From positions 1-64,000 of the forward strand of contig JABFFZ010000002.1 in NCBI GenBank assembly GCA_013112725.1: a stretch of DNA of 64,000 nt. The letters run 5' to 3'. Shown here piece by piece: positions 7,041 through 32,029 of the stretch. Below the pieces are notes generated by a model. It saw only the letters and a program-made list of their open reading frames with translations. It did not search any database and was not told the origin of the DNA. Made by a program: the position numbers and the translations under genes. Every line of letters starts with the position of its first letter. The stretch's first letter is position 1. The DNA comes from Chloroflexota bacterium. Lineage in GTDB: Bacteria > Chloroflexota > Anaerolineae > Promineifilales > Promineifilaceae.

Positions 7041-7054
7041 AGGGAAGTTTCACA

Positions 7055-7080
7055 TATCACGTATCACTTGATGCGTGATA
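7055..7080. repeat. Short inverted repeat between atpA and atpG
   Basis: TATCACGTAT (7055-7064) pairs with ATGCGTGATA (7071-7080) with one mismatch, in the 43-base gap between the atpA stop and the atpG start. The TATCACGCAT vocabulary also appears inside rnhB, after 48845 and at 62274-62306. Confidence 0.5.
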
Positions 7081-7083
7081 AGT

Positions 7084-8757: not shown

Positions 8758-8789
8758 TCACCAACCTCCTCGGAAAATAATCAAAGATT

Positions 8790-8826
8790 AAGTGACCGGA
8801 TAGTGCCAGGCGCTACCCGGTCACTT
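8790..8826. promoter_or_regulatory. Hairpin in the atp operon leader
   Basis: AAGTGACCGG (8790-8799) pairs exactly with CCGGTCACTT (8817-8826), and the interior pairs further (GTGCC with GGCGC). It lies about 30 bases upstream of the atpA ribosome-binding site on the transcribed leader. It could be an attenuator or a stabilising 5' stem. No run of T follows in the atp direction. Confidence 0.5.
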
Positions 8827-8887
8827 GAATAAAGTTGTAAATTGCTTTTAATTCACGCGAGTTTTGTTAATCTTTCAACTGTCCAGA

Positions 8888-8982
8888 GTAAGTGTTCAGT
8901 CCCTCAAGAGACCTGACAGGTTTTTGGCCTGCAAAGTTTCAAGTTGAACTGGTAAAAAAACCTGTCAGGTCTGAACGGTTAC
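8888..8982 (+). repeat. 95-bp MITE-like noncoding element, copy 1
   Basis: This stretch is almost identical, in inverse orientation, to 48948-49041, differing by one A in an A-run. Its ends pair imperfectly (GTAAGTGTTCAG at the left, CTGAACGGTTAC at the right). Internally it carries ACCTGACAGGTTTTT and its inverse AAACCTGTCAGGT. No frame in it looks coding. It sits between divergent atpA and the glycosyltransferase genes, so it may affect either promoter. Confidence 0.85.
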
Positions 8983-9137
8983 TGTCCAGACCAGTTACCC
9001 CTAAAGAAAATAGGGGGATGCTGCCAATTTGTATGCAGGATTTGGCTGTCAGACGGGGCTGGCAGCGGGCAAAATATACCCTACCCGCCGTCATTTGTCC
9101 AACAATTCACAAACGGGGCAGGCGGCGGGGAATCGTA

Positions 9138-9166
9138 TTGTTCCCCGTCACCTGTTCCACTATACT
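9138..9166 (+). promoter_or_regulatory. Candidate promoter for a leaderless glycosyltransferase mRNA
   Basis: TTGTTC (9138-9143) and TATACT (9161-9166) are separated by 17 bases. The preferred ATG is at 9176, only about ten bases past the -10 box, and there is no Shine-Dalgarno sequence. A leaderless transcript would explain this. The rest of 8983-9137 holds only AT-poor, weakly repetitive sequence. Confidence 0.4.
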
Positions 9167-9175
9167 CCCGCTCCC

Positions 9176-11362: not shown

Positions 11363-14172
11363 CCAGCCAGATGCACAGATGGCGGCTACGACTTTGGCTC
11401 ATCGGCATTTTGCTGCTGGCCTGGGGGCTGCGGTTGTATGCGCTTGAGGCCCAATCTATGTGGACGGACGAGGGGTTGAGCCTGTACCGTGCCCAACTGG
11501 CGCTGCCCGCTGTGCTGCGTGGCCTGATTGTGATTGATGGTGTAGCCACCCAGGATACCAATCCACCGCTCTACTTTTTGTTACTGTTTGCCATGCGCGT
11601 ACTGGCAGGGGATTCTATTTTTGCCCTGCGTCTGGTGGGGGTTTTGTGGGGGCTGCTCAATGTCTCGCTTATTTACCAGTTGGGCAAACGGCTGTTGGGA
11701 GTATGGCCGGGCGTGGGGGCGGCCTTTTTTCTGGCAATCTCGCCGCTGCATGTGTGGCAGAGCCAGGAGATGCGCAATTACACCGTGCTGCTCTTTTTTT
11801 CGATGCTTTCGGTATGGGCGCTGGTTTGTTTCTGGCAAAGCCTGACTAACGGGATCAGGTGGCGCTGGCCGGTCTTGTGGGGCGCAGCCGGGGTGGCAGC
11901 CATTTTGTCCCATTATTTTGGCATTTTTGTGTTTGCCTTTGGCTTGTTGGCGCTGCTGATTATTGGCCTGCAACATCGCCTGGTGCGCCGGCTGCCGGGT
12001 TGGGTGTGGGGCACGGCCGTACTCCTCTGCCTCTTGCTGCTGGCAGTGGCCTGGTATCTGCTGCCCCGTTTCCTGGGGGAACGGCAGTTTGACTTTGCCT
12101 TTGTGCCCCTGGCCGATTTGCTCAACCACACGGCCACTGCCTTTGGCCTGGGGATTGTGCCCGGCTTTTTAGGCGCGTGGTGGCGGGTGTGGCCGGCCTG
12201 GCTGCTGGCGCTGTGGGGCGGCCTGATTGCCTGGCGGCAAGGGAAAGGGGCCAGCGTTTCCCTGCTGGCGGCTTATCTGCTGGCACCGCTGCTGCTGCTG
12301 TATGCGCTCTCGGCGCTGTCGCCGCTGTACAATGGCCCGCGCCACCTGATTATGAGCCTGCCGCCGTTGCTGGTGTTGATGGCGGCAGGGCTGTTTTTGC
12401 CGGGGCGCTACGGCCGTATACCGGGCATGGTGTTGGCGGCGCTGATCATCATCAGCCAGTTGGCCTGGCTGCGCACCCAGTTCACCGATCCGGCGCTGGT
12501 GAAGGATGATCTGCAAGGGCTGGCGCATTATTTGAACCAGGCGGCCCAACCCGGCGACTTGATTGTGCTGCACGATACCATCATCCAGTTTCCTTTTGAT
12601 TATTACTACGAAGGTGATGCGCCCTGGACGGCCGTGCCGCAGTTACCCGAACAGAATGTGGCGCCAGTCCAGCAGCGGCTGGCAGAAATGGGCGCGTCTG
12701 CGGAGCGCATCTGGTTCGTAACGGAGCCAACGCCGCGCACCGGCTTTCCCATCGCCGCCCTGACCGAATGGGCGGAAGAACATTGGCGGCGGCTGGATGA
12801 AAAACGGTTTTCTTCGCTCTGGCTGGGGGTGAAAGTGGTGTTGTTTGCGCCAGACCCGGTTCAGGACACGGCCGTTGCCGATTTACCGCTCCTGGCAACT
12901 TATGATGATGCTCTAAACCTGCATGCCGTTTCCTCACCGGCAGATATTCCATCGGCGGCCGTCTGGCAGCCGGTTTTCACCTGGTCGCGCAGCGGCGCGG
13001 AGGCGGCGGAGAAACATTACCTGCTGGCGTTGCAATTCAGTGATGGCGCCACGACCTGGTGGGAAACGAGTTACCCCCTGTGGGAAACATATCCCTCGTT
13101 TGCCTGGCCGGAAGGAACGGCCGTGCAATACCGGCCCCCCATCCAGCTACCCGCCGGGCTGCCGCCGGGTGAGTACCAGGTGTGGCTGCAACTGCTGGAT
13201 CGGGCTACGCATGTGCCTGTGCTGGCCACGCCCGGCGACGGCCCCCTCTTGCTGCTGCCGCAACTAACGGTGACGCCGTCTACGGCCGTGTCCGCCACCC
13301 ACCTGCCCGACCATACCCCCCGCCTTGTCCGTTGGCCGGGCCTGGATCTGGTGGGGTACAACTTTCCCACCGAGACGTACCGCCCCGGCCATCTGCTGCC
13401 GGTGGATGTGTATTGGCAGGCGCAGGGCGGCGCGCCGGACAGCCAGTTGGTGGTGCAACTGCTGGATGCGCAGGGCCAACTGGCGGCGGAAACCATCACG
13501 ACCCCCACCCGCGCCGATTATCCCCCTTCACAATGGCAGGCAGGGGAGCTGCTGCACGGCCGTGCCCAACTGTTGATCCCGGCGCAGGCTGCCAGCGGCG
13601 CCTACCACCTGCGGCTGGCGCTGCGCGACCCGCAAACGGGCGGCTGGCGACGTGGACAGGATGGTTGGCGGCTGTGGGCGAACAGTGTTACCTTGCCAGA
13701 AGAGGTTGTGGTGGAAGCGTGGCCGCTGGCGACAGAACTGCCAGAGATGAGGCAGGCCGTTCAGGCGGCATTTGGCCAGCCGCCCCTGGCGCGGCTGGCG
13801 GGCATTACCTGGGCGGATACGGCCGTTACACCGGGCCGCCTGATCTCAGTGACGCTGGTCTGGCAAACGGAAGCTTTGTTTCCGGCCAACTATGCCATTT
13901 TTCTGCATCTGGAAGATGAACAGGGGGCGTTGGTGGCCCAACAAGACAGCTTTCCGCGGCAAGGTTCGCGCCCCACCACCAGTTGGCGCCCCGGCGAGGT
14001 GCTGATGGACACACATACGCTGCCACTGCCGCCCGATTTACCACCGGGGGGCTATACATTATGGCTGGGACTTTACAATCCTGACACAGGGGAGCGGCTG
14101 CCGGTAGTGGTGAATGGAGAGATGCCGGCGGACGGCCGTTTGCGGTTGGAGATGGGCATAAAAATCCCTTAA
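11359..14172 (+). CDS. GT39-like dolichyl-phosphate-mannose-type glycosyltransferase
   Basis: A 937-residue partner of the preceding gene, translationally coupled through ATGA. The first loop holds SMWTDEGLSLYRAQ, the acidic pair expected of GT39 (PMT/ArnT-like) enzymes. DTNPPLYFLLLFA and SPLHVWQSQEMRNY are also typical. Many hydrophobic helices reach about residue 375. A soluble middle region is followed by two or three beta-sandwich modules ending in YAIFLHLEDEQGALV and YTLWLGLYNPDTGERLP, the same modules found in the upstream neighbour. The pair probably arose by duplication. The substrate cannot be stated. The gene ends four bases into the convergent hydrolase gene. Confidence 0.8.
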   Translation: MTSQMHRWRLRLWLIGILLLAWGLRLYALEAQSMWTDEGLSLYRAQLALPAVLRGLIVIDGVATQDTNPPLYFLLLFAMRVLAGDSIFALRLVGVLWGLLNVSLIYQLGKRLLGVWPGVGAAFFLAISPLHVWQSQEMRNYTVLLFFSMLSVWALVCFWQSLTNGIRWRWPVLWGAAGVAAILSHYFGIFVFAFGLLALLIIGLQHRLVRRLPGWVWGTAVLLCLLLLAVAWYLLPRFLGERQFDFAFVPLADLLNHTATAFGLGIVPGFLGAWWRVWPAWLLALWGGLIAWRQGKGASVSLLAAYLLAPLLLLYALSALSPLYNGPRHLIMSLPPLLVLMAAGLFLPGRYGRIPGMVLAALIIISQLAWLRTQFTDPALVKDDLQGLAHYLNQAAQPGDLIVLHDTIIQFPFDYYYEGDAPWTAVPQLPEQNVAPVQQRLAEMGASAERIWFVTEPTPRTGFPIAALTEWAEEHWRRLDEKRFSSLWLGVKVVLFAPDPVQDTAVADLPLLATYDDALNLHAVSSPADIPSAAVWQPVFTWSRSGAEAAEKHYLLALQFSDGATTWWETSYPLWETYPSFAWPEGTAVQYRPPIQLPAGLPPGEYQVWLQLLDRATHVPVLATPGDGPLLLLPQLTVTPSTAVSATHLPDHTPRLVRWPGLDLVGYNFPTETYRPGHLLPVDVYWQAQGGAPDSQLVVQLLDAQGQLAAETITTPTRADYPPSQWQAGELLHGRAQLLIPAQAASGAYHLRLALRDPQTGGWRRGQDGWRLWANSVTLPEEVVVEAWPLATELPEMRQAVQAAFGQPPLARLAGITWADTAVTPGRLISVTLVWQTEALFPANYAIFLHLEDEQGALVAQQDSFPRQGSRPTTSWRPGEVLMDTHTLPLPPDLPPGGYTLWLGLYNPDTGERLPVVVNGEMPADGRLRLEMGIKIP

Positions 14173-15104
14173 CGGCCGTCGCTGATGCCAAAATCCGGCG
14201 CGTATTGGGCCAGAAATTCATCCACCATCTGCTTATAAGCGTCAAAATCGGTGAAAATGTCACGGCCGTGTGCAGACCCCCAGTCGGTAATGTGCAGGAC
14301 GGTCGTCGCCGGGTTGCTGTTGGCGTAAATGGCTTCGGAGTGGGTGTAAGGCGTGTAGGCATCGGTGCGGGAGTGGATGAGCAGAATGGGCACGGCCGTA
14401 TCCGCCACCGCCTCTTTGGGCGCCACGTCACGCGCCTCAAAATCGGCCCGCATCTCAGCTATGGCAAAGGCTGCCGGGACAAAAAGCTTTACCCATGAGC
14501 CAAATTGCGCCACTGCCTGCCAGCCAACAATAGCTTCCAAACTTTCATAGGGAGAATCGGCAATGATAAAGGCTGCTTCGGGCAGCAGCGGAGCAGCTTG
14601 TAAGGAAGTGGCGGCGCCATAGGAAACGCCGGTTAAGGCCACCTGTTCCGGTTGCAGGCCGGTGCGCGCCAGAAGCCAGACATAGGCCGCCTGGGCGTCT
14701 TGTTTTTCATAATACCCGTAGGTGTGAAAGGCCGGGCTGCTTTCACCATGGCCGCGGGCATCATAGGCCAGCAGGTCACAGCCACGCTCCCAAAAAAGAG
14801 GGGCATATTGCAGGGCGTTGTAGCGTGTGCCGGTGTACCCATGCAGCAGGAGGACAGCGCAGTCGCCAACTTTTTCATTGTCATAGAAAAACCCGGCCAG
14901 GGACACATCGCCATTTGGAATGGTCACCGCTTCCGGGGTTGGCAAAACGGGCAGCCCCAACTCGGCCATTGCGGTTTGGGAATCAGCCAGCGTTGACGTG
15001 GGCCGGTTAATAAGCAAATCGCCGAAATACCAACTGCCCCCCATATAAACCAACAGGAGCAACACAACCAGTATGTCCAAAATCCAAATGAGTTTAGATT
15101 TCAT
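14169..15104 (-). CDS. Membrane-anchored alpha/beta hydrolase
   Basis: A 311-residue serine hydrolase of the BEM46/FrsA-like alpha/beta type, anchored by one N-terminal helix (IWILDILVVLLLLVYMGGS), with the catalytic domain probably outside. The oxyanion segment LLHGYTGTR, the nucleophile elbow GVSYGAA, the acid in HSRTDAYTPY and the histidine in GSAHGRD complete the triad. ATG 15104 is chosen over an upstream TTG because GAGGAACCT precedes it. The substrate is not predictable; esterase or peptidase activity is possible. Confidence 0.8.
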   Translation of the reverse strand: MKSKLIWILDILVVLLLLVYMGGSWYFGDLLINRPTSTLADSQTAMAELGLPVLPTPEAVTIPNGDVSLAGFFYDNEKVGDCAVLLLHGYTGTRYNALQYAPLFWERGCDLLAYDARGHGESSPAFHTYGYYEKQDAQAAYVWLLARTGLQPEQVALTGVSYGAATSLQAAPLLPEAAFIIADSPYESLEAIVGWQAVAQFGSWVKLFVPAAFAIAEMRADFEARDVAPKEAVADTAVPILLIHSRTDAYTPYTHSEAIYANSNPATTVLHITDWGSAHGRDIFTDFDAYKQMVDEFLAQYAPDFGISDGR

Positions 15105-15128
15105 AGGTTCCTCTACCAATTGCCGGCT

Positions 15129-15482
15129 CTAGAAACGGCCGTCATCGAACGGGTCTTTATTACGCGAATACAGGCTGGGGTCGCCGGTACGTCGCCGCCC
15201 TTCTGGGCTGCCGATCATAAACCCCAATGTCAAAATGATCTGCATCAATATGACGATGACAAACATCGTTGCCCCTTTCAAGAGGGTGATGGACCAGTTA
15301 CGGGGCAGGGCCAGATCGGTGTAATAGAATTTCTCAGAAAGATAGCCCGTATCAAAGAGATATTCAACCAAAAAGTAAGCAACGGCAAAGGAGATGGCCA
15401 GCCAGACAACAAAGATGAGGGTACGAACAGATAGCCCTTTGCGTTTTGACAATTGTTCCTTTTTTTTCTTTTCCAGACGCAT
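15129..15482 (-). CDS. Small two-helix membrane protein, unknown
   Basis: A 117-residue protein that I do not recognise. A very basic start (RLEKKKKEQLSKRKG) is followed by helix 1 (LIFVVWLAISFAVAYFLVEY), a polar loop with aromatic residues, helix 2 (GATMFVIVILMQIILTLGFM) and a polar tail with an RRR cluster. By the positive-inside rule both ends are cytoplasmic. It lies 24 bases upstream of the hydrolase start on the same strand, so the two are probably co-transcribed. Confidence 0.7.
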   Translation of the reverse strand: MRLEKKKKEQLSKRKGLSVRTLIFVVWLAISFAVAYFLVEYLFDTGYLSEKFYYTDLALPRNWSITLLKGATMFVIVILMQIILTLGFMIGSPEGRRRTGDPSLYSRNKDPFDDGRF

Positions 15483-15500
15483 GTTGTTGTCTCCTCTAAT

Positions 15501-15533
15501 AATAGTGGCTTGTACCAGCCACCAGCCACTATT
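15501..15533. repeat. AATAGTGGCT hairpin with CCAGCCACCAGCC words
   Basis: AATAGTGGCT (15501-15510) pairs exactly with AGCCACTATT (15524-15533). The right arm, with its ACCAGCCACCAGCCACTATT core, recurs at about 19179-19198 and, slightly changed, at about 48465-48484, each time next to a gene end. It lies between two co-directional minus-strand genes. Confidence 0.6.
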
Positions 15534-15539
15534 CTCAAT

Positions 15540-15944
15540 TTATGGGGCCGCTGCCAGGCACCAGTTAGCCACCCATCCCTGTTGCCCATTATCGTTCAAG
15601 ATGACTAAAGAGAATGGCTGCATGGCAAATTGCCCATCCACCGATTGGATCGTTTGATCTCTTGTTTCCAGCACGGTAACGGGCAGGTCTACATTAAACA
15701 CAATGGTATGCTCACGAGTTTCTGGGCGGTCGTGGCGGCCTAGAATGAGCGGACGGCCGTCTACCGCCTGCCCACACTGCCCCTGCTGCGCACACACTTC
15801 GCTACAGGTAAGCACCGTTTGGCCGGCGGCTACCGGCTGTTCTTCACCGCCGCCACCGCCAAAACAGGCAGTCAGGGTAACGGCCGTGCCCAACCAAAAA
15901 AGCAGGTAAACAGGAAATTTGCGGTTTGCATACGGCCGTTTCAT
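15540..15944 (-). CDS. Predicted lipoprotein, unknown function
   Basis: A 134-residue secreted lipoprotein. A basic start (KRPYANRK) and a hydrophobic stretch end in the lipobox LTAC, where the cysteine would be lipidated, followed by a glycine-rich spacer. Four further cysteines (CSEVC, QC and one near the C-terminus in NWC) could form disulfides outside the cell. No known family is recognised. Genes on either side on this strand encode other envelope and signalling proteins. Confidence 0.75.
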   Translation of the reverse strand: MKRPYANRKFPVYLLFWLGTAVTLTACFGGGGGEEQPVAAGQTVLTCSEVCAQQGQCGQAVDGRPLILGRHDRPETREHTIVFNVDLPVTVLETRDQTIQSVDGQFAMQPFSLVILNDNGQQGWVANWCLAAAP

Positions 15945-15961
15945 TTTATCTGTCAGTCAAT

Positions 15962-15995
15962 AGATCTGACAGGTTTTCTGAAACCTGTCAGGTCT
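15962..15995. terminator. Hairpin of the ACCTGTCAGGT family after the response-regulator gene
   Basis: AGATCTGACAGGTTT (15962-15976) pairs with AAACCTGTCAGGTCT (15981-15995) with one mismatch and a four-base loop. It fills the gap between the response-regulator stop and the lipoprotein start. It matches the halves of the 95-bp elements elsewhere. A terminator role is plausible but not proven. Confidence 0.5.
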
Positions 15996-16007
15996 GCCTT
16001 GCTCACA

Positions 16008-16424
16008 TTAGCTTCTGTCCCAAATCGCTTCACCGTTGAGAACACGCTGCACCTGACCGGAAAATTCAGCCGGCTTCAACGGTTTGCTGATAAACCCATC
16101 AAACCCTAAATGGCGCGCATGTTCCATTTCCGCCATGAGCGTTCCGGCGGAAACAGCCACCACGCGAGCCGATTTCAACATCTCGTGTTCCCGAATCTCC
16201 GCCAGCAGTTCATACCCACTTTTGCCCGGCATGTTAATATCCACCAGAAACAAATCCACTTTGGGCAGCCGCTCCGCAAAAGAAATAGCAGAGTCGGCGC
16301 TTTTGCGGGCATAACAACGGTTAGCACCACCCAACCGCAGCAAATCCAGGGTGATCAGCTGGGCATTGGGATCATCTTCTACCAAAACAATATACGCATC
16401 TTGCAGGGTTAAATGTGTTTCCAT
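16008..16424 (-). CDS. Single-domain response regulator (CheY-like receiver)
   Basis: A 138-residue receiver domain with no output domain. The acidic pocket VEDDPN, the phospho-acceptor in LFLVDINMPGKSG, the conserved Ser/Thr position (VVAVSAG) and the lysine in SKPLKPAEF are all present. ATG 16424 begins just before the fold; an upstream ATG would add atypical residues. It follows the histidine kinase gene by 52 bases on the same strand and is its probable partner, passing the signal by phosphotransfer or protein contact. Confidence 0.88.
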   Translation of the reverse strand: METHLTLQDAYIVLVEDDPNAQLITLDLLRLGGANRCYARKSADSAISFAERLPKVDLFLVDINMPGKSGYELLAEIREHEMLKSARVVAVSAGTLMAEMEHARHLGFDGFISKPLKPAEFSGQVQRVLNGEAIWDRS

Positions 16425-16476
16425 AATTATGTGAAGTGTATCAAAACGGCCGTACCCCGGCAATCACAGCCCCTTG

Positions 16477-19017
16477 TCAATGACACGGTGGCGGCGGAAT
16501 AAACAATGTTTTGGAAACGGCCACACCGCCGGAAACAACTTCGCCGACGCCAGCCTGCGCGCCGCCGGTAAAACTCACCTCAAAGGTCAAGCCATCATTG
16601 GCCACATTGTCCGCCGCCTGCTCGCCGTTCCAATAATAAGTATACACGCCATTACCGCCCTGCCCGCGCATATATACCGTTTGCCACCATGTCTGGCCTT
16701 CACAGCGCCCCCGGTCTGGCAGCAGATACAGGTCTAGAGCCAATGGGCCGCTCACCGGCGGCGGCGCAGCGCTGCCACTTCCGATCACCGGCAGTGTGTC
16801 GCTGTCGCCGCCCCATTGCAGCCGTTCGCCAAAAATGAACCCCTCCTGTCCTTCGGTCGCGCGCACATAAAGCCAGTTGCCATTGGCGGAGCGCCCCAAA
16901 ACGGTGACCGAATCGCCGGCATTAACAAACGTAACTTCCTCACTGGCAGCGTTGGGCTGCCGGTAAAGGGAGGAGTTTAACAAGGCAATGGCAATGTTGT
17001 CAAAGGTAGGTGCCGGGGTATCGGTCGGGGTGGCAGTCATCGTGGCGGTTGCCTGCGGCGTGGCTGTTGGCGATGGGCTGGCAGTGAGCGTATGGGTGGG
17101 CACGGCCGTGCTGGTAGGCGCCATGGTATGCGTGGGCACAGGGGATGGGTTAACCGGCGCCGGTTCAATCACCGGCACGGCCGTCGGCGAGGCCTCTTCC
17201 AGCGTGGGCGAGTTGGGGGGCGTGTCATCGGGTGACACGGCCGTAGCCGACGGCGCAATCACGACAACCGACGTGGGTGTGCCTGGCCCTGCCGCTGCCA
17301 CCAACGCTGCCCGCCCATTACCGGCACGGTCGGACATGGTGAACCACAACCCGCCCAGCAGAACAAGCAGCAGCACCACGACCACAACCCATGCCCACTG
17401 GTAACGCTGCCATAACGACGGTGGGGGCAGCGTCGGCTTATTTTCCGGTGGCAGTGGTTCGAGCTGCGCCGGTGTGGGCAGCGATGATTCAGTTGGGATA
17501 GCTGTGGGGGGGGTCACGGCCGTGCTTGCCGCAGCCACAGCCGCGGCCACAACCACATCATCAGCCCCTATCTGGGGTTCAATCGCGGGGAAAGTAGGGC
17601 TGGGTACGGCCGTGGCCAAAGCGGAGAGTGTGGTTTCTGCCGCTACTACCCCGGCCATATTCACCTCTGCCTGTTCCTGATACACAGGCAACACAATGGT
17701 AAAACAAGACCCCTGCCCTACCTCACTGGTCACAAACATCTGCCCGCCATGCCGCTCGATCAAATGACGGGTAATGGGCAGCCCCAGGCCGGTGCCCACC
17801 CGCTTCCGCGCCGCCGATTCATTCACCTGCCGGAACTCCATGAAAATCGTCTCGTGGTGTTCGGGGGCAATGCCAATGCCGGTATCAATCACCGACAGCT
17901 GCAGTTCATCCTCAATCTGCCGCACCCGCAGGGTGATGAACCCCTCTTCCGTATACTTCACCGCATTCCCCAACAGGTTGATCAGCGACTGCTTCACCCG
18001 CATCTTGTCTACTTTTACCAGCGGCCATTCATCCGGGTAGTCACGCACCAGATCAACCTGGCTTTCCAGCAGCAGCCCGCGTGTGGTGGTCATTGCCTCT
18101 TCACAAAGCGCGTGCAGGTCACACACTTCCAGATGCAGCTTAAATTCACCGGCCTGAATCTGAGCCATATCCAGCAAATCGTTCAGCACCGAAAGCAAGT
18201 GCCAACCCGATTTTTCAATCCGTTCCAGGTAATCAATCTGCCCTTCTGATACCGGCCCTCGCCCCCCCAGGCGCACAATGTGGGCAAAATTGACAATGGA
18301 GTTCAGGGGGGTGCGTAATTCATGGCTGACGTGGTTCATAAAGCGGGTGCGTATATCCCGTTCATCCAACGCCTCTTGCCGCGCTTTATCTAGCTGGCTG
18401 TTGGTGAATTCCAGTTTGGCATTGGCAAACTTCACCTCTTCTTGAATGGCATACAATTCATCCCGCCGCCGCTGCACATTGCGGTGCAAATCGCTCACCG
18501 TTTCTACGGCATACTGCCACTCAACCGCCGACATGAAGGCAATGGCTGCCAGACCCAAATTTACCAGAATGGGGCCTAACAACAAACGAAAGGTCTCAAA
18601 CGAAGCCCCTGCCTGCCAAAAAACCGCGCCTAAGATAACAACAGTGGCGGCGCCCCAGGCTAAAAAGCTGTTTTCGGTCCGGCTGAGCATGGCTGAGGCC
18701 ACAATTAAGATACCAAAGAGGTAAGGAATGGGGCTGCCCGGCTGCCATTCTTGAAAAAGAATGACCGCTAACATGGTGAACTGCACCAAAAAGAAAATGT
18801 TGATGCCCAGGTCGTATTTGTTGTTTTGGATAAACCGCCAGGCCAGCCAGCCGCCCAATGGGGCCACAATCGCGCAGAACCAGAAATGACCGACATCCCA
18901 AAAAGATGAGGAGCCAACGACAAAGATGAGGCTGAGCAAGAGGACGACGGTGGTGAGGACGGGGATAATAATACGGCTAGAGTCTACTCGCAGTTCTTGA
19001 GAATACGATTGGTTCAT
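16477..19017 (-). CDS. Membrane histidine kinase with an extracytoplasmic SH3-like C-terminal extension
   Basis: An 846-residue sensor kinase of unusual layout. Five or six N-terminal helices (to about residue 165) are followed by a coiled coil, then the dimerisation domain with the phospho-accepting histidine in VSHELRTPLNS (about residue 230). The ATPase domain has N-box LGNAVKYT, G1 DTGIGIAP and G2 GTGLGLPI. After a Pro/Ala-rich linker a further helix (WVVVVVLLLVLLGGLWF, about 540-558) leads to a long Thr/Pro/Ser stalk and then an SH3-like module (about 660-735: LYRQPNAAS, VTVLGRSANGNWLYVR). A cysteine-containing C-terminal domain follows. The last 290 residues should lie outside the cell and may sense the cell wall. 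The frame is continuous. Confidence 0.88.
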   Translation of the reverse strand: MNQSYSQELRVDSSRIIIPVLTTVVLLLSLIFVVGSSSFWDVGHFWFCAIVAPLGGWLAWRFIQNNKYDLGINIFFLVQFTMLAVILFQEWQPGSPIPYLFGILIVASAMLSRTENSFLAWGAATVVILGAVFWQAGASFETFRLLLGPILVNLGLAAIAFMSAVEWQYAVETVSDLHRNVQRRRDELYAIQEEVKFANAKLEFTNSQLDKARQEALDERDIRTRFMNHVSHELRTPLNSIVNFAHIVRLGGRGPVSEGQIDYLERIEKSGWHLLSVLNDLLDMAQIQAGEFKLHLEVCDLHALCEEAMTTTRGLLLESQVDLVRDYPDEWPLVKVDKMRVKQSLINLLGNAVKYTEEGFITLRVRQIEDELQLSVIDTGIGIAPEHHETIFMEFRQVNESAARKRVGTGLGLPITRHLIERHGGQMFVTSEVGQGSCFTIVLPVYQEQAEVNMAGVVAAETTLSALATAVPSPTFPAIEPQIGADDVVVAAAVAAASTAVTPPTAIPTESSLPTPAQLEPLPPENKPTLPPPSLWQRYQWAWVVVVVLLLVLLGGLWFTMSDRAGNGRAALVAAAGPGTPTSVVVIAPSATAVSPDDTPPNSPTLEEASPTAVPVIEPAPVNPSPVPTHTMAPTSTAVPTHTLTASPSPTATPQATATMTATPTDTPAPTFDNIAIALLNSSLYRQPNAASEEVTFVNAGDSVTVLGRSANGNWLYVRATEGQEGFIFGERLQWGGDSDTLPVIGSGSAAPPPVSGPLALDLYLLPDRGRCEGQTWWQTVYMRGQGGNGVYTYYWNGEQAADNVANDGLTFEVSFTGGAQAGVGEVVSGGVAVSKTLFIPPPPCH

Positions 19018-19195
19018 AAGGCCATTGTAGACAGCACGCTACCAGGCTGCCGTCTAGCTAAAGTGAATTTTTATGGTCAGGGTACACCATCAACTGGGAA
19101 AAGTATACTGAACTGGCGCAAGGGGATCATTAACGCTTTAGTACCTGAACAAGGGGCTGGTAGTTGGCGGCTGGTAACCAGCCACCAGCCACTAT

Positions 19196-20146
19196 TCAAG
19201 ATAGAAAATCAAGTGTGGCTTGCAATACATCTTTGGCTACACGCAAACGGCCGTCGCCATCCCCCATCATCGTATCCATTGCTACGGCATCCCCTGCCCC
19301 TTCAAATGCGCCCTCATCCTGCCGGTCGTAGATGAACAGGTCTATCAGGTCGCCGTAGTAGGCGGCTACGGCCGTCGCCGACACTTCCATGCCCATTTCC
19401 TGCATCATCTTGGCGGCAGGGCCTTTGACGGCCTGCCCGCCAATGATGGGGCTGACGGCCGTGACCACCTGCGGCACATCTTCCAACAGCGCCCGGATAG
19501 GGTAGACGTTCAGAATGGGGTCAATGCTCACAAACGGGTTGGAGGGGGCAATGATGACGATGTCGGCCGTTTCCAGGGCACGGATGATGGCATGGGTAGC
19601 TTTCACATCGTTGGGCAAGATAATGTTGTTGACCGGCGGCTGCCACCGTTCGCGCACAAACCAGGTCTGAAAGGGCAGGATACGGCCGTCGGTACTCTCA
19701 ATCATGGTCGGCGCGGGCTGGTCGCTCATGGGCAGGATGGCGGGTTGGATGTACAGGTGGGTGCAGAGGTGACGGGTCACGGCCGTGAGCGTCTGTCCTT
19801 CACCTAGCAACTGCGCCCGCGTCAGATGCGTCGCCAGGTCTAAATCACCCAGGCGAAACCAATCTGGCCCGCCCAACTGTGTTACTGCTTCCATTGTGCG
19901 CCAGCTCTCCCCGGCGCGCCCCCAGCCAGTCTCCGGGTTGGCTACTCCCGCCAGGGTATACATCACCGTGTCCAGGTCGGGGCACACAGTCAGCCCCAGG
20001 TGTTGGAAGTCATCGCCGGTATTGACAATAATGGTCAAATTCGGCGGCGGTACGAGTTGCGCCAACCCGGCGGCCAGTTTGGCCCCACCCACACCGCCGG
20101 CCAGGCAGACGATGCGGTAATCCGTTATCCGTAATCGGCGATCCAT
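19196..20146 (-). CDS. cofD: 2-phospho-L-lactate transferase (F420 biosynthesis)
   Basis: A CofD of about 316 residues. It joins the 2-phospholactate-type (or phosphoenolpyruvate-derived) unit to Fo to make the F420 core. The N-terminal loop VCLAGGVGGAKLAAGLAQ, VNTGDDFQHLGL, CPDLDTVMY and APSNPFVSIDPIL are diagnostic. The start is awkward: the codons before VCLAGG are made of the TAATCGGT-like border words, read as MTDYGSPIMDRRLRITDYR. ATG 20146 is the nearest start; ATG 20170 is also in frame. No other F420 genes are in the window. Confidence 0.9.
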   Translation of the reverse strand: MDRRLRITDYRIVCLAGGVGGAKLAAGLAQLVPPPNLTIIVNTGDDFQHLGLTVCPDLDTVMYTLAGVANPETGWGRAGESWRTMEAVTQLGGPDWFRLGDLDLATHLTRAQLLGEGQTLTAVTRHLCTHLYIQPAILPMSDQPAPTMIESTDGRILPFQTWFVRERWQPPVNNIILPNDVKATHAIIRALETADIVIIAPSNPFVSIDPILNVYPIRALLEDVPQVVTAVSPIIGGQAVKGPAAKMMQEMGMEVSATAVAAYYGDLIDLFIYDRQDEGAFEGAGDAVAMDTMMGDGDGRLRVAKDVLQATLDFLS

Positions 20147-26207: not shown

Positions 26208-26492
26208 ATGATAGAGTCATTTGCCTCACGAGAAACGGAACGGATTTTCAACGCGCAGATTTCCAGAAAGCTGCCCCATAACATCCAGCAAACAGCCCGC
26301 CGCAAGTTGCTCTATTTACAGGACGCGGATGATTTACGAGACTTAATCGCTCCTCCGGGCAATAGATTGGAGAAGCTGCACGGCAATCGTGAAGGTCAGT
26401 ACAGCATTCGGATCAACGATCAATGGCGTATCTGCTTCCGGTGGGAAAACGGCCGTGCCTTTGATGTGGAAATTGTAGATTATCACTCATAG
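26208..26492 (+). CDS. higB: HigB-like mRNA interferase toxin
   Basis: A 94-residue RelE-superfamily toxin, expected to cut mRNA on the ribosome. RKLLYLQDADDLRDLIAPPG, NRLEKLHGNREGQYSIRIND and QWRICFRWENGRAFDVEIVDYH are the typical HigB stretches, including the basic core and C-terminal strand. As in other HigBA operons the toxin precedes its antitoxin, here by nine bases. A repeated CATGATA just before the start could be part of an operator. Confidence 0.88.
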   Translation: MIESFASRETERIFNAQISRKLPHNIQQTARRKLLYLQDADDLRDLIAPPGNRLEKLHGNREGQYSIRINDQWRICFRWENGRAFDVEIVDYHS

Positions 26493-26501
26493 GGAGTATT
26501 G

Positions 26502-26831
26502 ATGATGGAAGACAAACTATTACCCGTCCATCCTGGCGAAGTTTTGGCCGAAGATTTTATGAAGCCATTGGGTTTGAGCCAATATCGGGTAGCGAAAGAC
26601 ATTGGTGTGCCTGCTTTGCGCATTAGCCAGATTATCAGTGGCAAACGTTCCATTACGGCCGATACCGCCATGCGGTTAGCGCGCTATTTTGGCACCAGCC
26701 CAGATGTCTGGCTGCGTTTGCAAGCCCGGTATGATCTGGAAGTCGCTCAAAATGATTACGGCGATCAAATTGAGCGAGAAGTCAAAGTGCTGGATCAAAG
26801 CCAATATGCCACCTTTGCCCAGACTGGCTAA
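26502..26831 (+). CDS. higA: HigA-family antitoxin
   Basis: A 109-residue XRE-type helix-turn-helix antitoxin. VHPGEVLAEDFMKPLGLSQY leads to the HTH (VAKDIGVPALRISQIISGKR) and RYFGTSPDVWLRLQARYDLE. It neutralises HigB and probably represses the operon. AGGGAG (26491-26496) sits before the tandem ATGs at 26502 and 26505; either could start the protein. Confidence 0.9.
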   Translation: MMEDKLLPVHPGEVLAEDFMKPLGLSQYRVAKDIGVPALRISQIISGKRSITADTAMRLARYFGTSPDVWLRLQARYDLEVAQNDYGDQIEREVKVLDQSQYATFAQTG

Positions 26832-26883
26832 TGAAACAAATATCAGGTGTTATAATGCGTCAAAGATAGCAAAGGAGATTGTT

Positions 26884-27243
26884 ATGTCAGTCACAATTGA
26901 AGCCATTAAACTGCCAGAGAGCGGCCCACTTCATTTAGAGCTAAACCTGACTACCCATATTGCGTTTACGGCCGAAGACGCCCGCCGCAAGGTGAGCGTC
27001 TATGTCGGCAATCACATTGCCGATTTGTTATCCGGCGAGACGCCTACGCTAGTCTGGCGGCAGGAAAGAGCCTTCTGGCGTGTGCCTGTCACTCTCTCAA
27101 GCCGGTCATGGGGGCGAATCGGTCAGGTAGGAACGCTTGACGTGGATGTGCAAACCGGTGAATTACAAATTGAAGATACACAGATTCAGGAAATAGAAGA
27201 CAATGCCGGCCGTTTTGCTGCCAGTGCCACGCAAAGATTGTGA
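26884..27243 (+). CDS. Conserved-looking 119-residue protein, unknown
   Basis: AAGGAG seven bases before ATG 26884 marks a real gene. The product is mostly beta-like (LHLELNLTTHIAFTAEDARR, FWRVPVTLSSRSWGRIGQVG, LDVDVQTGELQI) with an acidic C-terminal helix (IQEIEDNAGRFAASATQRL). I do not recognise the family. Size, position after higBA and the VDVQTGEL strand are compatible with an antitoxin lacking its toxin, but that is only a guess. It still has neighbour-like base composition; the AT-rich cassette begins just after it. Confidence 0.75.
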   Translation: MSVTIEAIKLPESGPLHLELNLTTHIAFTAEDARRKVSVYVGNHIADLLSGETPTLVWRQERAFWRVPVTLSSRSWGRIGQVGTLDVDVQTGELQIEDTQIQEIEDNAGRFAASATQRL

Positions 27244-27336
27244 AGCAAAGAATCGTATCACGTGCAAAGCAGATCAAGATCGAGTTATACCATTCGTAAG
27301 TTATGACGCATATACCAGTCCGAAAAAGGGTCTACA

Positions 27337-27349
27337 CTAAATAATTTAG
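27337..27349. promoter_or_regulatory. Palindromic candidate operator before the AT-rich cassette
   Basis: CTAAATAATTTAG is a perfect 13-base palindrome centred on A, next to the GTAAGGA binding site of the first cassette gene. It would be well placed for autoregulation by the DNA-binding protein that gene encodes. It is short and AT-rich, so chance is possible. Confidence 0.3.
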
Positions 27350-27360
27350 AGTAAGGATTT

Positions 27361-29403
27361 ATGTCACAGGATAATGAAGAGCATTCAACTGTCAGTTATG
27401 TAATGGGTTCTCTTTCATCAGTACCGATAGAACACCTAAATCTATCTATCAGACCCAGAAATGCCTTATTGCGTGCCGGACTAAAAACAGCTTTGGACAT
27501 TCAAAGATTGATAGAGAAAAACACATTATCCAGTATTTATAATATCGGGTCGTTAGCTGTCCAAGAAATAGAGGAATGCCTAAGCTCAATGCTAGAAAAC
27601 CAGGGAATAGAGTTGTCGGTAAGTGAAATCGCATTGCCAGATAATGAGGAACGCAAATCAACTGTAATACCTACTGTATCCTTCTTTGATGATTTACCCG
27701 TGGATATATTGGTACAAGAACTCAGTAACGATATGATACATCGGCTAAAATCAGCAGGCTTTGAAAGTATCGGGGAGTTGCTCAACTTATCTCGAGCTGT
27801 GGAAAGCTTCATTGAGAATACTTCTACAACACTTGACCGACTGATCAACCACCAAAAAGATATTCTTCGGGCACTTATAGCGAGAGAGAAACTTCATCCC
27901 CAAGCACAATATCGCAACATGAGCATCAAATCATGGTTAAACCTCGCCCCAGAGAACACTAACGAACAAGGGGAATTTCTGAAGCTATTATTACAAATAA
28001 ACGAAAGTCATTCTCTGAGTGAAGAACTGTCCATCCTTTTTGCTAAAGTTGCTGAAAGAGATCTTGATATCTATATAAAATACTTCAATGATAACTTGAC
28101 CTTAGCACAAGTTGGAAGGCAACAAGGAGTCACTAGAGAGCGGGTGAGGCAAATCACTTCCAAAACTGCAACTAGATTATGGGCGCGGATAAACCAAAAT
28201 CCCGGATTGTATCTTCAATCAGCCCTGCTAGTAGCAAAAGATATGGGCGATAACTTATCTCTAAAATCATGGAGATTGGCCCTACAAAATAGAAACATTA
28301 TTGATTCTTCACGTCCGGCCCGTGAGAACTTAGATTCCTTTGACGCTCTTTGTGCCCTACTTCGAAGTGCTGATAAAGCTAAATATCCTCCAACAATAAA
28401 AATCGATGAAAGTGTCACATTTATCCTTGAAAGTCCAAGTGATTTGTCTTTGGGGTTAATCAAAGCCATTGAGGAAATGTCCTCGAAGGCAAAAAGAAAA
28501 ATGCACCAGAAAATTAGCTATATGGGGGGGATTCATCTTTCAGAAGCCTCTGAAACTTTAGATGTATCGCCCCAACAAGCTGCATATATCCTTAAGCATT
28601 TAGGATATAAAGAGGTGGATCACGATTGGTATACAATTGCTACTGCTGAAAACACTACCAGATGGCCAATCCTGAAGGCGGGACTTGCTATGATGGAAGT
28701 TTGCGGACCACTAGAATTTAGTGTTTTTTGCGATGGGACAAGAAGATATATTTCTCGATTTTATGATATTCTTGCGCCCCCAAGAGTGATGAAAGCTCAT
28801 ATAGAAGCTTTAGGCTTCGAAGTAGAAGATGATTATGTTAGTTGGAATGAAACGCCAACAGGTTATCTAGCGGAAAGTGACAAATGCTTTGTGCAAGTTG
28901 TAGAAAAACATGGCACAGTCGTAACGTTTCAGGAAGTAGTGGAGTTTTTCCAAGAAAAGGGTTTTTCAATCGCTACAGCTACTGCAAGAGTTTTGCCACA
29001 ATCACCAATTGTAGAAAAAGTCGAGACCGGCCTTTACAAAATTCGTGGCCGAAACCACACTTGGGAAGATATAGAAAATGCCAGAAGTCGTCAGGATCCC
29101 ATTGACTATGACCCAGAAGTGGTCTATGGAATCGATGGCCTCATTAGGTACAAGATAACAATTGGCTCCTGGGCACTTAACGGTGTATTAAGCATCAGTT
29201 CAAACCAACCCCAGCTTCCTGATCTTGGAGATGGATGGGAAATTTTCGTCGAAAACAAATCTCGTGGGATTGCCAAGAGGGATGAACATTTAATTTGGGG
29301 ATTGGGAAGTGCATTTAATGCCCTTGGGGTACAAATCGGAGATAGAGTAGAACTGGCATTTGATGCATGGGAAAAGCCTCTTATTCGAATATCAAAAACC
29401 TGA
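27361..29403 (+). CDS. Cassette protein A: RNAP alpha-CTD-like and sigma region 4-like DNA-binding protein
   Basis: A 680-residue protein that borrows transcription modules. Residues about 18-75 match the RNA polymerase alpha C-terminal domain (PIEHLNLSIRPRNALLRAGL, then IYNIGSLAVQEIEECL). A second helix-hairpin-helix-like unit follows at about 110-145. Residues about 243-275 read as sigma-70 region 4 (LTLAQVGRQQGVTRERVRQI). Two later segments look like winged helices: about 375-430 with ASETLDVSPQQAAYILKHLG, and about 510-575, HARE-HTH-like. The C-terminus has a small beta domain (LGVQIGDRVELAFD). No core polymerase or catalytic motif is visible. Codon use is AT-rich and unlike its neighbours. 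It starts two genes that follow with 1-base spacing and a 4-base overlap. Function is unknown; DNA recognition for the downstream ATPase is my inference. Confidence 0.8.
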   Translation: MSQDNEEHSTVSYVMGSLSSVPIEHLNLSIRPRNALLRAGLKTALDIQRLIEKNTLSSIYNIGSLAVQEIEECLSSMLENQGIELSVSEIALPDNEERKSTVIPTVSFFDDLPVDILVQELSNDMIHRLKSAGFESIGELLNLSRAVESFIENTSTTLDRLINHQKDILRALIAREKLHPQAQYRNMSIKSWLNLAPENTNEQGEFLKLLLQINESHSLSEELSILFAKVAERDLDIYIKYFNDNLTLAQVGRQQGVTRERVRQITSKTATRLWARINQNPGLYLQSALLVAKDMGDNLSLKSWRLALQNRNIIDSSRPARENLDSFDALCALLRSADKAKYPPTIKIDESVTFILESPSDLSLGLIKAIEEMSSKAKRKMHQKISYMGGIHLSEASETLDVSPQQAAYILKHLGYKEVDHDWYTIATAENTTRWPILKAGLAMMEVCGPLEFSVFCDGTRRYISRFYDILAPPRVMKAHIEALGFEVEDDYVSWNETPTGYLAESDKCFVQVVEKHGTVVTFQEVVEFFQEKGFSIATATARVLPQSPIVEKVETGLYKIRGRNHTWEDIENARSRQDPIDYDPEVVYGIDGLIRYKITIGSWALNGVLSISSNQPQLPDLGDGWEIFVENKSRGIAKRDEHLIWGLGSAFNALGVQIGDRVELAFDAWEKPLIRISKT

Positions 29404-29404
29404 C

Positions 29405-29995
29405 ATGACTCAATTCGGCACAATTTTATCTAACTCGCAGATAGTAACCTTAGCTGTCTCAAAATTAGGTGGCGCGACAAAGGCAGTGGATATTGAAGAT
29501 ATTGCAATTCTTGCATATGAAATCTACCCAGAGAAATTTTCCTGGCGTAAATACCCTGAACGCATAGATTTACGAGTTGTTCAATACGCACTAAAGGATG
29601 CCTCAAGTGTACACAAAGGAGAGCCTTTGTTAAAAGGGAATCTTAAACATGGTTATATCCTTACTCCAACAGGTTTGGACTGGGCAGAAAAAAATCAACA
29701 CGTTAGTTTTGAAGATTATAAGGCTGGATCTCGCAAGCAATCTACTACCGACAAACTGTCTATCGAACAAGCCCGGTTACTGAAGAGTAGCGCGTTTGTG
29801 AAATTCGAGGCAAATAGAGTTAAAGACATTAAGTATTCTGACTTTCAGGAATTTGCACGAGTAAATGATTATTTTCCCGAACATGTTCGTCAAAAAAGGT
29901 ATGTGATTGTTCAAAATGCAGTTAGTGGCAACCGTAAGCTTGAAGCCTTGTGGGAGCTACTTGTTGCAGAATTTGTGGAGGAGAAACTAAAATGA
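29405..29995 (+). CDS. Cassette protein B: small wHTH-like adaptor, unknown
   Basis: A 196-residue protein starting one base after the stop of protein A and overlapping the start of protein C as ATGA. The first 90 residues look like a winged helix (IVTLAVSKLGGATKAVDIED, then FSWRKYPERIDLRVVQYALK and GYILTPTGLDWAEKN). The C-terminal half is helical and basic, ending in RKLEALWELLVAEFVEEKLK. I know no named family. Its position between a DNA-binding protein and a GHKL ATPase suggests an adaptor. ATG 29405 is preferred to an upstream in-frame ATG inside gene A. Confidence 0.75.
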   Translation: MTQFGTILSNSQIVTLAVSKLGGATKAVDIEDIAILAYEIYPEKFSWRKYPERIDLRVVQYALKDASSVHKGEPLLKGNLKHGYILTPTGLDWAEKNQHVSFEDYKAGSRKQSTTDKLSIEQARLLKSSAFVKFEANRVKDIKYSDFQEFARVNDYFPEHVRQKRYVIVQNAVSGNRKLEALWELLVAEFVEEKLK

Positions 29996-31671
29996 CCCAT
30001 CAAAGTATCACAGTAACAAGCCATGTAGCTCGTGATTTCCTACAAAACGCAGTTTATTTCAACACACTCCCAAAAGTTATCTGGGAATATGTCTCTAACT
30101 CTCTAGATAACGCAAAGGATGATACTCCGGTAACTGTATCTGTAGATTTGTTGCCCACCAAACCAAAGACTCTTCAAATCGCAGACAACGGCATTGGAAT
30201 GTCTCGAAAGGCTCTGCTCCAATTCTTTCAAATGCATGGAGAAAATGTTCAAAGGAAAAAAGGCAAGCGGGTTCGGGGACGATTCGGCACAGGCAAGTCG
30301 GCAGCCTTCGGAGTTGCAAATACCCTTGTTATTGACACAGTACAAAATGGTATTCGCAATGTCGTGGAGTTGACCCGTGATGCGATAGAAAACGCAAGTC
30401 ATGGGGGCGCCTTTCCCGTCGAAGAATTGGTCAACAATGAGGTGGTGGACAGAGAAGATGGCACCATTGTCCAGATTACTAACTTTATTAACCCAAGATT
30501 CAACTTCGAACAAACTATTACATATATTGAGCGACATTTGGGCCGCTACAAATCCCGTGCCACAGTAATTATTAATGGGCATAATTGTAAGTTTCGAGAA
30601 CCAGCATCAATACGGAGTTTTTCGTTTACTCCTCCTCCTGATGTCACAAAAAGAATTAGCGAAATCGAGTTATTGATAAAGGTTGCTCCAACCCCTTTAG
30701 AGAAAGAATTCAATGGGATAGATATTCTCTCATATGGAATCTGGCATGAAACAACTCTTGCCGGCATCGAGAACAAGGATCTAGCTAACAGAATTTTTGG
30801 TGAAGTTGATGTACCTAAACTAGAAGATTATGAGGGGGCAATTCCAGCATTTGACAATACACGTAACAATCAACTGAATCGGTCAAATCCTCTTGTGATT
30901 GTCTTGCTTGGCTGGATTGCATCAGAGGTTGAGAATGTTAGAAAAATTCTAGTTGAAGAAGAACGTGAACGTAAACGTGGCGAACAGTTCAAACGGTTAG
31001 AGGAACGGGCGAAGGAAATAGAGAGCATACTAAATGAGGACTTTCTAACCATACTTGACCAATACGAATTGGCCAGAAAAGTTAGTGCGAGGAAGTCAAC
31101 AAAACTGTCAACAGGGCCTGGGGAAGATGGGGAAGTTTTGCCTGAGGATGGAGATGAAATATCAAAATGGCAGGTTGCTGGACATCCACATGGTAAAGGT
31201 ATAAAGGGGAGCCAACCCCCAGGTGAAGGGGCAACTCCCAGACCAGGAGGTCCCAGTCTTATCGTAGGAACTCAAAAAGGTTCTCCAAAAGAAATCACAG
31301 AAACTGGCGACACGTCTAAAAATAACAAGAAACGAAGGGGTATTTTTACTATTGAATGGACGGAGGGATCCCCTGATGACAATCGTTCAGAATACAAGAA
31401 GGATACAAGGACAATCTATATTAATTTGAGTCACCCACAAGTATCATCTGCTCTCAAAGCAAGTGGAGGGGTGGTAGATTCCCGCCAGTTCAAAGAAATT
31501 GTTTATGAAATTGCAGTAGTAGAATATGCACTTGCTGTGCAATATGAACGAGCAGAAAGTGAAGAGGTTGATCCTTTTGATGCCCTATTTGAAGTGGGTA
31601 GCATTATAGATCGTGTCACTCGAAAAATATCACTGTTACTTTCGACCCCATCCTCCCCCAAAAACCCATGA
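29992..31671 (+). CDS. Cassette protein C: GHKL (Hsp90/MORC/MutL-like) ATPase
   Basis: A 559-residue ATPase preceded by GGAGGAG. The Bergerat fold is clear: N-box WEYVSNSLDNA with E32, N36 and D39, G1 box IADNGIGM (65-70), and a G2 lid RGRFGTGKSAAFGVAN (about 95-110). This would dimerise on ATP binding as MORC and MutL do. A transducer-like domain follows to about residue 330, then a charged coiled coil (VEEERERKRGEQFKRLEERA), a low-complexity Gly/Pro linker, and a C-terminal domain (about 450-559) with a conserved-looking beta start (IFTIEWTEG) and helical end. There is no kinase, topoisomerase or MutL nuclease motif. Role unknown; MORC-like relatives occur in conflict and DNA-modification systems. 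Confidence 0.85.
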   Translation: MTHQSITVTSHVARDFLQNAVYFNTLPKVIWEYVSNSLDNAKDDTPVTVSVDLLPTKPKTLQIADNGIGMSRKALLQFFQMHGENVQRKKGKRVRGRFGTGKSAAFGVANTLVIDTVQNGIRNVVELTRDAIENASHGGAFPVEELVNNEVVDREDGTIVQITNFINPRFNFEQTITYIERHLGRYKSRATVIINGHNCKFREPASIRSFSFTPPPDVTKRISEIELLIKVAPTPLEKEFNGIDILSYGIWHETTLAGIENKDLANRIFGEVDVPKLEDYEGAIPAFDNTRNNQLNRSNPLVIVLLGWIASEVENVRKILVEEERERKRGEQFKRLEERAKEIESILNEDFLTILDQYELARKVSARKSTKLSTGPGEDGEVLPEDGDEISKWQVAGHPHGKGIKGSQPPGEGATPRPGGPSLIVGTQKGSPKEITETGDTSKNNKKRRGIFTIEWTEGSPDDNRSEYKKDTRTIYINLSHPQVSSALKASGGVVDSRQFKEIVYEIAVVEYALAVQYERAESEEVDPFDALFEVGSIIDRVTRKISLLLSTPSSPKNP

Positions 31672-31699
31672 AATCCCTGGCAAATTTTGAGTGAACATC

Positions 31700-32029
31700 A
31701 TGGTTCGTGTACCTACCCACCGCGCCCCCACCCATCCGGGGGAGATGTTATTGGAAGAATTTCTAACGCCGATGGGCATTAGCCAACGTGATTTGGCTGA
31801 CGCCATTCACGTGCCTTATCAGCGGATCAACGAAATTGTCAACGGCCGTCGTGGTATCACCCCCAGCACAGCCCTCCGTTTAGCCAAATTCTTTGGCGGC
31901 GAAGCTGGTTTTTGGATGAACCTTCAACTGCGATGGGATTTGTACCAGGTACAACAGTCGGAAGCACAGATATTACAAACGATTGAGCCACGTCAGATTC
32001 CTGCAAGCGAAAGCATCACCCCGTCGTAA
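31700..32029 (+). CDS. Orphan HigA-family antitoxin-like regulator
   Basis: A 109-residue XRE-type protein of the HigA family: RAPTHPGEMLLEEFLTPMGI, HTH region LADAIHVPYQRINEIVNGRR, and FFGGEAGFWMNLQLRWDLYQ. No higB gene precedes it; the AT-rich cassette ends just 28 bases upstream. It may have lost its toxin when the cassette inserted, or may act in trans on HigB at 26208. GTG 31691 is an alternative start, but ATG 31700 gives the usual N-terminus. GC-rich composition and ACGGCCGT (about 31842) return here. Confidence 0.85.
   Translation: MVRVPTHRAPTHPGEMLLEEFLTPMGISQRDLADAIHVPYQRINEIVNGRRGITPSTALRLAKFFGGEAGFWMNLQLRWDLYQVQQSEAQILQTIEPRQIPASESITPS

Follow-up and report, generated by a model that had tools for sequence, protein, structure and literature searches.

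What is a compact, AT-rich block of three genes doing in the genome of a Chloroflexota bacterium, and how did it come to be there? The block lies in a 64,000-nucleotide stretch of a member of the Promineifilaceae (assembly GCA_013112725.1, contig JABFFZ010000002.1, positions 1–64,000; hereafter the window), and its genes, here called A, B and C, encode a multi-domain protein with DNA-binding domains, a small protein and a GHKL ATPase. A preliminary description made from the sequence alone had read the block as a transferred conflict, epigenetic or DNA-surveillance system. Our comparisons show that A, B and C form a conserved unit that the window lineage gained by replacement insertion. We propose, as a tentative reading whose chances we place a little short of even, that the unit is a horizontally acquired, nuclease-less reader-plus-clamp system, which would recognise foreign DNA and silence it by ATP-driven clamping.

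A conserved three-gene unit in three phyla

Using C as the query over 84,980 species genomes, we retrieved 12 loci. In seven of these (L022, L023, L025, L026, L027, L032 and L021) B and A lie directly upstream of C in the order A-B-C, with A cut off by the contig end in L021; the sequence of L024 begins at C, and its neighbours are not readable. The order is B-C-A in Allopontixanthobacter (L029), and a profile of B alone, searched against 385 alphaproteobacterial genomes, returned three matches, in the L029 genome and in two genomes near-identical to each other, all of them full B-C-A cassettes. With the window included, A, B and C are adjacent in all 11 readable loci (four from Chloroflexota, four from Poribacteria and three from Alphaproteobacteria), always in one of these two orders and with junctions that overlap or lie within a few bases. 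The ratio of non-synonymous to synonymous substitution rates (dN/dS) among the Poribacteria orthologues L023, L026 and L027 is 0.11–0.14 for C, 0.17–0.20 for B and 0.20–0.28 for A, rows with L024 having been excluded as invalid after an in-frame stop disturbed the alignment; all three genes are under purifying selection. Because the unit is found again and again, at 11 loci in three phyla, and is maintained by selection, it is more than a chance association. The preliminary description had suggested asking whether the three genes co-occur in distant genomes, and they do.

Clear orthologues of C are nonetheless sparse: there are 2 carriers among the 298 genomes searched from the class to which the window belongs, 5 among 85 Poribacteria and 1 among 398 from the order that includes L029. 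The base of the C tree is without resolution and so is compatible with one or several origins of the three-gene state. A sister clade of C comprises L028 (124–1665), L030 (9704–11578) and L031 (9833–11599). Neither A nor B lies beside C in L030 and L031, L028 begins at a contig end, and B was not found in any of the three genomes carrying these loci; the clade is possibly a domesticated, solo version of C. The L030 and L031 proteins have a proline-rich N-terminal extension and share a conserved locus near ATP-synthase genes, and sister-clade genes also lie near large membrane proteins. The cassettes of L102 (6852–10962) and L103 (663–4773) are near-identical and their flanks identical, although the two genomes (2.4 and 5.6 Mb) are assigned to different species; one of the two contigs may be mis-binned.

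Acquisition by replacement insertion

To one side of the cassette and again to the other, the window is collinear with locus L096 of a congeneric genome, G244, at ~90% nucleotide identity, up to ~27229 and from 32013 onwards. Between these flanks G244 has 416 bp from inside a C39-like peptidase gene, where the window has a 4.78 kb insert. The peptidase gene is intact in G244 (152 amino acids; PF13529, 1.2e-14), a genome without the A-B-C unit; in the window only the two ends of this gene survive, roughly the first ten codons and the final ~17 bp. Since the intact gene represents the older state, the window lineage acquired the A-B-C segment by replacement insertion, which confirms the transfer that had been suspected from composition and layout. 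The last ~17 bp of a lone higA-like open reading frame (ORF) downstream of C derive from the displaced peptidase gene; the higA-like gene either came with the replacement or was fused during it.

The upstream higBA pair is also present in G244, and is therefore ancestral at this site and outside the transfer; we reject it as a member of the transferred unit. The cassette does lie between higBA and an orphan higA, as the preliminary description had it, with the lone higA inside the acquired stretch. Integration at a tRNA was dropped as an explanation, the sole tRNA of the window being ~15 kb distant, and carriage as phage or plasmid cargo was dropped because viral collections, scanned three times, and searches among phages and plasmids yielded one weak plasmid match in all.

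The compositional picture drawn earlier holds as well. A, B and C are joined on the forward strand by a 1-base gap (A/B) and an ATGA overlap (B/C). Their G+C content is 0.41, 0.39 and 0.43, respectively, and 0.33–0.35 at third codon positions, against 52–59% for the upstream neighbour gene, mscS (0.54) and ubiD (0.59), the last two lying to either side of the block, with higBA at 0.49. The palindromic octamer ACGGCCGT, a highly iterated palindrome counted over the window (1–64000), occurs 120 times against 1.24 expected from dinucleotide shuffles, and has zero copies from 26457 to 31841, a stretch spanning A-B-C. A promoter scan gave a result at chance level. A small conserved gene of 119 amino acids without a Pfam match (26884–27243), which G244 also has, lies between higA of the pair and the insertion.

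Table 1. Features of the cassette and its surroundings in the window (nucleotide positions; domain positions in residues).
Feature	Position	Strand	Length	Content	Evidence
Gene A	27361–29403	+	680 aa		ORF call, Pfam, AlphaFold2 model and structure comparison
Gene B	29405–29995	+	196 aa		ORF call; profile places B beside A and C in every full cassette
Gene C	29992–31671	+	559 aa		ORF call, Pfam HATPase_c_3, AlphaFold2 model
Gene A domains				alpha-CTD 19–75; sigma-70 region 4 229–273; three predicted winged helices 373–561; B3-like 591–680	Pfam and AlphaFold2 model
Gene C domains				GHKL ATPase and S5; coiled-coil helix 300–368; disordered linker 369–449; C-terminal alpha/beta domain 452–550 (all predicted)	AlphaFold2 model
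higB-higA pair	26208..26831	+		toxin-antitoxin pair	HigB Pfam 3.3e-19; pair also in G244
Peptidase remnant, 5' end	27203..27229	+		C39-like peptidase gene	alignment to L096 2886–2911
Acquired segment	27230..32012			A, B, C and most of higA-like gene	collinearity with G244 locus L096
Lone higA-like gene	31691..32029	+		antitoxin gene	HTH_3 1.7e-11; junction alignment
Peptidase remnant, 3' end	32013..32029	+		C39-like peptidase gene	alignment to L096 3328–3344

Gene C encodes a paraMORC-like ATPase

The assignment of C to the GHKL (Bergerat-fold) ATPases, already made in the preliminary description, is supported by Pfam (HATPase_c_3, 5.2e-17) and by ATP-binding motifs that are intact in nine of nine relatives (Glu32/Asn36, DNGxGM-type and G(R/M/F)FGTGK-type). 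A profile of C found generic GHKL matches only among solved structures. With the AlphaFold2 model as query, MORC2 and MORC4 rank first in Foldseek (4.3e-14 to 1.8e-12), and the first 11 matches in VIA are all MORC2, MORC3 or MORC4 (Z 18.9–21.6; root-mean-square deviation 3.4–3.9 over 278–297 residues), followed by SMCHD1 (Z 18.9) and Hsp90 (about 18). In the model, residues 9–330 align with MORC ATPase modules, and a predicted S5 domain of the same fold is placed C-terminal to GHKL. The MORC-defining S5 motif GhXhhpXXRhl is absent from nine of nine proteins, which carry a GIDILSxGIW-type sequence instead, with I, N or V in place of Arg; we thus reject membership of C in MORC proper. With a GHKL domain and a predicted S5 but without the MORC S5 motif, C is a paraMORC-like ATPase by the criteria of Iyer, Abhiman and Aravind (2008, PMC2292703).

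The hallmarks of paraMORC2, paraMORC3 and paraMORC4 give no closer placement. The ExxxH of paraMORC2 is missing from the scanned S5 region of the window, L022 and L029, other relatives having scattered, non-equivalent matches; a sequence search with Pfam and PADLOC found no nuclease domain in C corresponding to the PD-(D/E)xK nuclease of paraMORC3; and Pfam gave no match in A, B or C to the TIR domain of paraMORC4. The C-terminal domain of C contains invariant polar residues.

C resembles the paraMORCs in its GHKL domain with intact ATP motifs, its predicted S5 without a MORC motif, and its sporadic distribution and mobility, with at least one copy in a restriction-modification (R-M) operon. 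MORC and paraMORC genes lie mostly in R-M operons, and paraMORC genes predominantly adjoin R-M genes or a superfamily II (SFII) helicase, although standalone members are allowed (PMC2292703). Unlike a typical paraMORC gene, C has no SFII helicase beside it in any cassette, and usually no linked nuclease or methyltransferase. It differs from other paraMORCs also in having fixed partners, namely a multi-domain alpha-CTD/sigma-4/winged-helix/B3-like protein, as modelled, and a small protein. The closest solved structures to the C model are the eukaryotic MORC2, MORC3 and MORC4, of which MORC2 uses ATP to close around DNA as a clamp and to compact it (PMC12216690); C differs from these in showing no match to the MORC S5 motif or the CW zinc finger, and its partners carry bacterial transcription-type domains.

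Gene A encodes a candidate DNA reader

In promoter recognition by RNA polymerase, the C-terminal domain of the alpha subunit (alpha-CTD) binds UP elements and sigma region 4 binds −35 boxes. Both of these domains are found in A (RNA_pol_A_CTD, 3.1e-11; Sigma70_r4, 5e-8) and in eight of eight relatives, in keeping with the alpha-CTD/sigma-4-like identity first given to A. Sigma region 2 is present neither in A nor in its relatives, so A is not a sigma factor, and a sigma-70 factor with regions 2 and 4 is ruled out. In the window the sigma-4 recognition helix has the sequence VTRERVRQI, and most relatives keep TRER(V/I)RQ or something close to it; E. coli sigma-70 touches the −35 box with these same residues. 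Structure matches to the alpha-CTD of A (Z 9–10.5) include 3n97, in which alpha-CTD and sigma-4 lie side by side on UP/−35 DNA.

At the other end of the protein, the modelled C-terminal beta domain resembles the B3 domains of the plant proteins VAL1, FUS3 and ARF1 and the N-terminal domain of the restriction enzyme LlaJI.R1 (Z 7.6–8.6 over 85–89 residues), which suggests a B3-like fold. B3-like domains serve sequence recognition in restriction enzymes. The third of the predicted winged helices is probably HARE-HTH-like.

A is the fastest-evolving of the three proteins, with pairwise identities of 54–61%, compared with 69–79% for B and 74–79% for C in the same pairs, and its alpha-CTD copy number differs between loci, with one in the window, two in L027 and six in L032. 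This faster divergence and the variation from one to six copies are as expected of a recognition or specificity subunit. The L032 gene (5318–9406) encodes 1362 amino acids, with a TPR-like start and a CxxC...CxxC motif in addition to the six alpha-CTD copies, and its N-terminal part recurs as a separate gene (18755–19582) ~9 kb downstream.

Gene B and its diverged relatives

B has no match in Pfam, PADLOC, PHROGs or NCBIfam, and a B profile gave chance matches only against solved structures. Since there is no significant Pfam match, it is the sequence pattern that leads us to suggest a winged helix in the N-terminal half of B. Elsewhere in the Chloroflexota, genes distantly similar to B likewise have GHKL-type neighbours (L077, L078 and L079). 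The L077 set (4716–8255), in B-C-A order, consists of a B-like winged helix-turn-helix gene, a C-like protein of 626 amino acids, with a GHKL-type N-terminal region and no Pfam match, and a sigma-4/HARE-HTH protein (PF05066, 4.7e-12). This set has little sequence similarity to the window cassette and adjoins a VapBC-like pair. L078 (5320–8421) and L079 (8334–11691), from related genomes, hold a pair made up of a winged helix-turn-helix-like protein (404–414 amino acids, Lys/Ala-rich middle) and a GHKL protein (625 amino acids), without a sigma-4 gene. The pairing of B with C thus seems old and general.

Comparison with known systems

Comparison with PADLOC, NCBIfam, PHROGs and Pfam gave domain-level matches only, and we dropped the possibility of a known defence system. 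The preliminary description had known of no named system with these parts and had asked whether all three proteins are clearly identical to a characterised one. No such identity was found, nor did any of the family libraries have a name for the three together; the claim needs qualifying for the ATPase, whose kind has been known since 2008 (paraMORC). Neither the libraries nor the published literature that we searched contained a fixed three-part set of this make-up, with an alpha-CTD/sigma-4/winged-helix/B3-like reader, a gene order circularly permuted between phyla and no nuclease that could be recognised, and we take the set to be new in these respects.

The best NCBIfam match of C is to the BbrUII/HgiDII restriction enzymes (NF050001), at 51.8 bits over the GHKL part (25–203); the cut-off is 550 bits and the rest of the model is unmatched, and this identity was rejected. 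VcSduA (paraMORC3/Shedu) stops phages and requires the catalytic Glu of its GHKL domain (PMC12137116). It is likewise a GHKL ATPase of the paraMORC radiation, and its essential Glu has a conserved counterpart in C; it differs in acting alone and in having its own PD-(D/E)xK nuclease domain. In PglW of BREX type 2, an alpha-CTD-like helical domain precedes a run of three winged helices (PMC12839542), an arrangement that A would share according to its model. A is without a kinase or STAND-like part and without BREX genes, and adds sigma-4 and a B3-like end; PglW membership was rejected, the match being weak, confined to residues 118–276 and unaccompanied by a Pfam kinase.

Discussion

Together, these data lead us to a model in which A would act as the reader, through its alpha-CTD, sigma region 4, winged-helix array and B3-like domain, B would couple A to C, and C would dimerise on ATP and clamp or compact DNA. 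The three proteins would recognise promoter-like or unmarked incoming DNA and load C onto it, and C would silence the loaded DNA by ATP-driven clamping; the promoter-like nature of the target is the least certain step. We favour silencing over cutting because no nuclease was recognised, the Pfam, PADLOC and NCBIfam searches of A, B and C having found neither a nuclease nor a toxin family. In one lineage (L029), the module would work beside a methyltransferase and a restriction enzyme.

Several observations tell against this proposal. Viral, phage and plasmid collections held no copies except for one weak plasmid match, a lone GHKL gene from Rhizobium. A linked R-M pair occurs in one of 11 loci (L029), and most other copies lie beside housekeeping genes. 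The predicted local distance difference test (pLDDT) score is low for the A model (65, with values of about 60 or less in sigma-4 and the linkers) and moderate for the C model (71), and the B3 reading of A comes from the model, since a sequence profile built from the C-terminal domain of A did not retrieve any B3 protein when run against solved structures. An effector could also lie hidden in C, within its C-terminal domain, or in B, within its second half.

The alternative that survives best is an R-M accessory, in which A and B would recognise DNA, C would clamp or bridge it, and a nuclease encoded alongside or elsewhere would cut. The L029 island (7348–17546) fits this: a C5 methyltransferase gene (PF00145, 6.3e-57) and an Eco29kI-like gene (PF09517, 2.7e-6, just below the cut-off; a candidate restriction enzyme) lie directly upstream of B-C-A, which is followed by a resolvase and a tyrosine integrase, and R-M operons are the main setting of MORC and paraMORC genes (PMC2292703). 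However, neither a methyltransferase nor a nuclease is linked to 10 of the 11 cassettes, and C5 methyltransferases were undetected genome-wide in the carriers G087 and G301, in a search not aimed at adenine methyltransferases. On balance we consider an accessory role unlikely. The preliminary description had also raised the question of known defence genes nearby, and the answer is mixed: one copy lies in an R-M operon and most relatives lie outside obvious defence islands. The host of L029 is a cultured alphaproteobacterium, Allopontixanthobacter confluentis KCTC 52259, and as such convenient for laboratory work. The sole C5 methyltransferase match in the window's own genome (G000, contig C122, 7442–8506) has an in-frame TAA.

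We regard as improbable an abortive or toxin-like module, in which A and B would sense foreign DNA and C, or its C-terminal domain, would turn toxic. Toxin-antitoxin genes do stand beside several copies, including higA in the window, an AbiEi-like antitoxin gene and a Schlafen AlbA_2/RecG-C-type gene just downstream of the L032 cassette (12041–14777), and the VapBC-like pair at the L077 set, and the invariant polar residues in C would suit a toxic domain. Yet higBA is ancestral at the site, and the family searches recognised no toxin or nuclease.

Still more doubtful is an ordinary host operon for chromosome organisation or transcription regulation, moved by chance. The unit stands alone beside housekeeping genes in most genomes, and the sister clade of C in Chloroflexota, without A or B, keeps a fixed locus near ATP-synthase genes; the rare and patchy distribution of the cassette and its recent replacement insertion in the window lineage speak against it.

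The MZA anti-phage system pairs a sigma-like MzaA with the GHKL protein MzaB, much as the sigma-4-bearing A is paired with C. We think it very unlikely that the cassette is a reduced relative that has lost the other components: although MzaA and MzaB rank high among the weak matches that A and C have in the defence and NCBI libraries, and MzaA is matched too by the A-like gene at L077 (8.4e-7), the scores (A/MzaA 25.5 against a cut-off of 800 bits, C/MzaB 17.3 against 850) cover generic sigma-4 and GHKL parts only, sigma-4 is C-terminal in MzaA and mid-protein in A, and other mza genes are absent from the neighbourhood, on which grounds membership was rejected.

The reader-plus-clamp proposal bears on the history of a wider family. 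In plants and animals, transposons are kept silent by MORC ATPases, whose origin is generally sought in bacterial conflict systems. Most of the bacterial relatives described to date are, to our knowledge, accompanied by nucleases. A bolder extension, which we put forward as a speculation unlikely to hold in full, is that the unit represents a bacterial gene-silencing immunity, in which a promoter-mimicking reader would load a MORC-type clamp and shut DNA down uncut, as a counterpart and candidate ancestral state of transposon silencing by MORC proteins. A compact three-gene unit in which no nuclease was recognised, with a reader built from promoter-recognition parts, makes it directly testable in a laboratory strain whether clamping alone can serve as defence. 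If the proposal is true, MORC-type DNA clamping would join the ways in which bacteria restrain foreign DNA.

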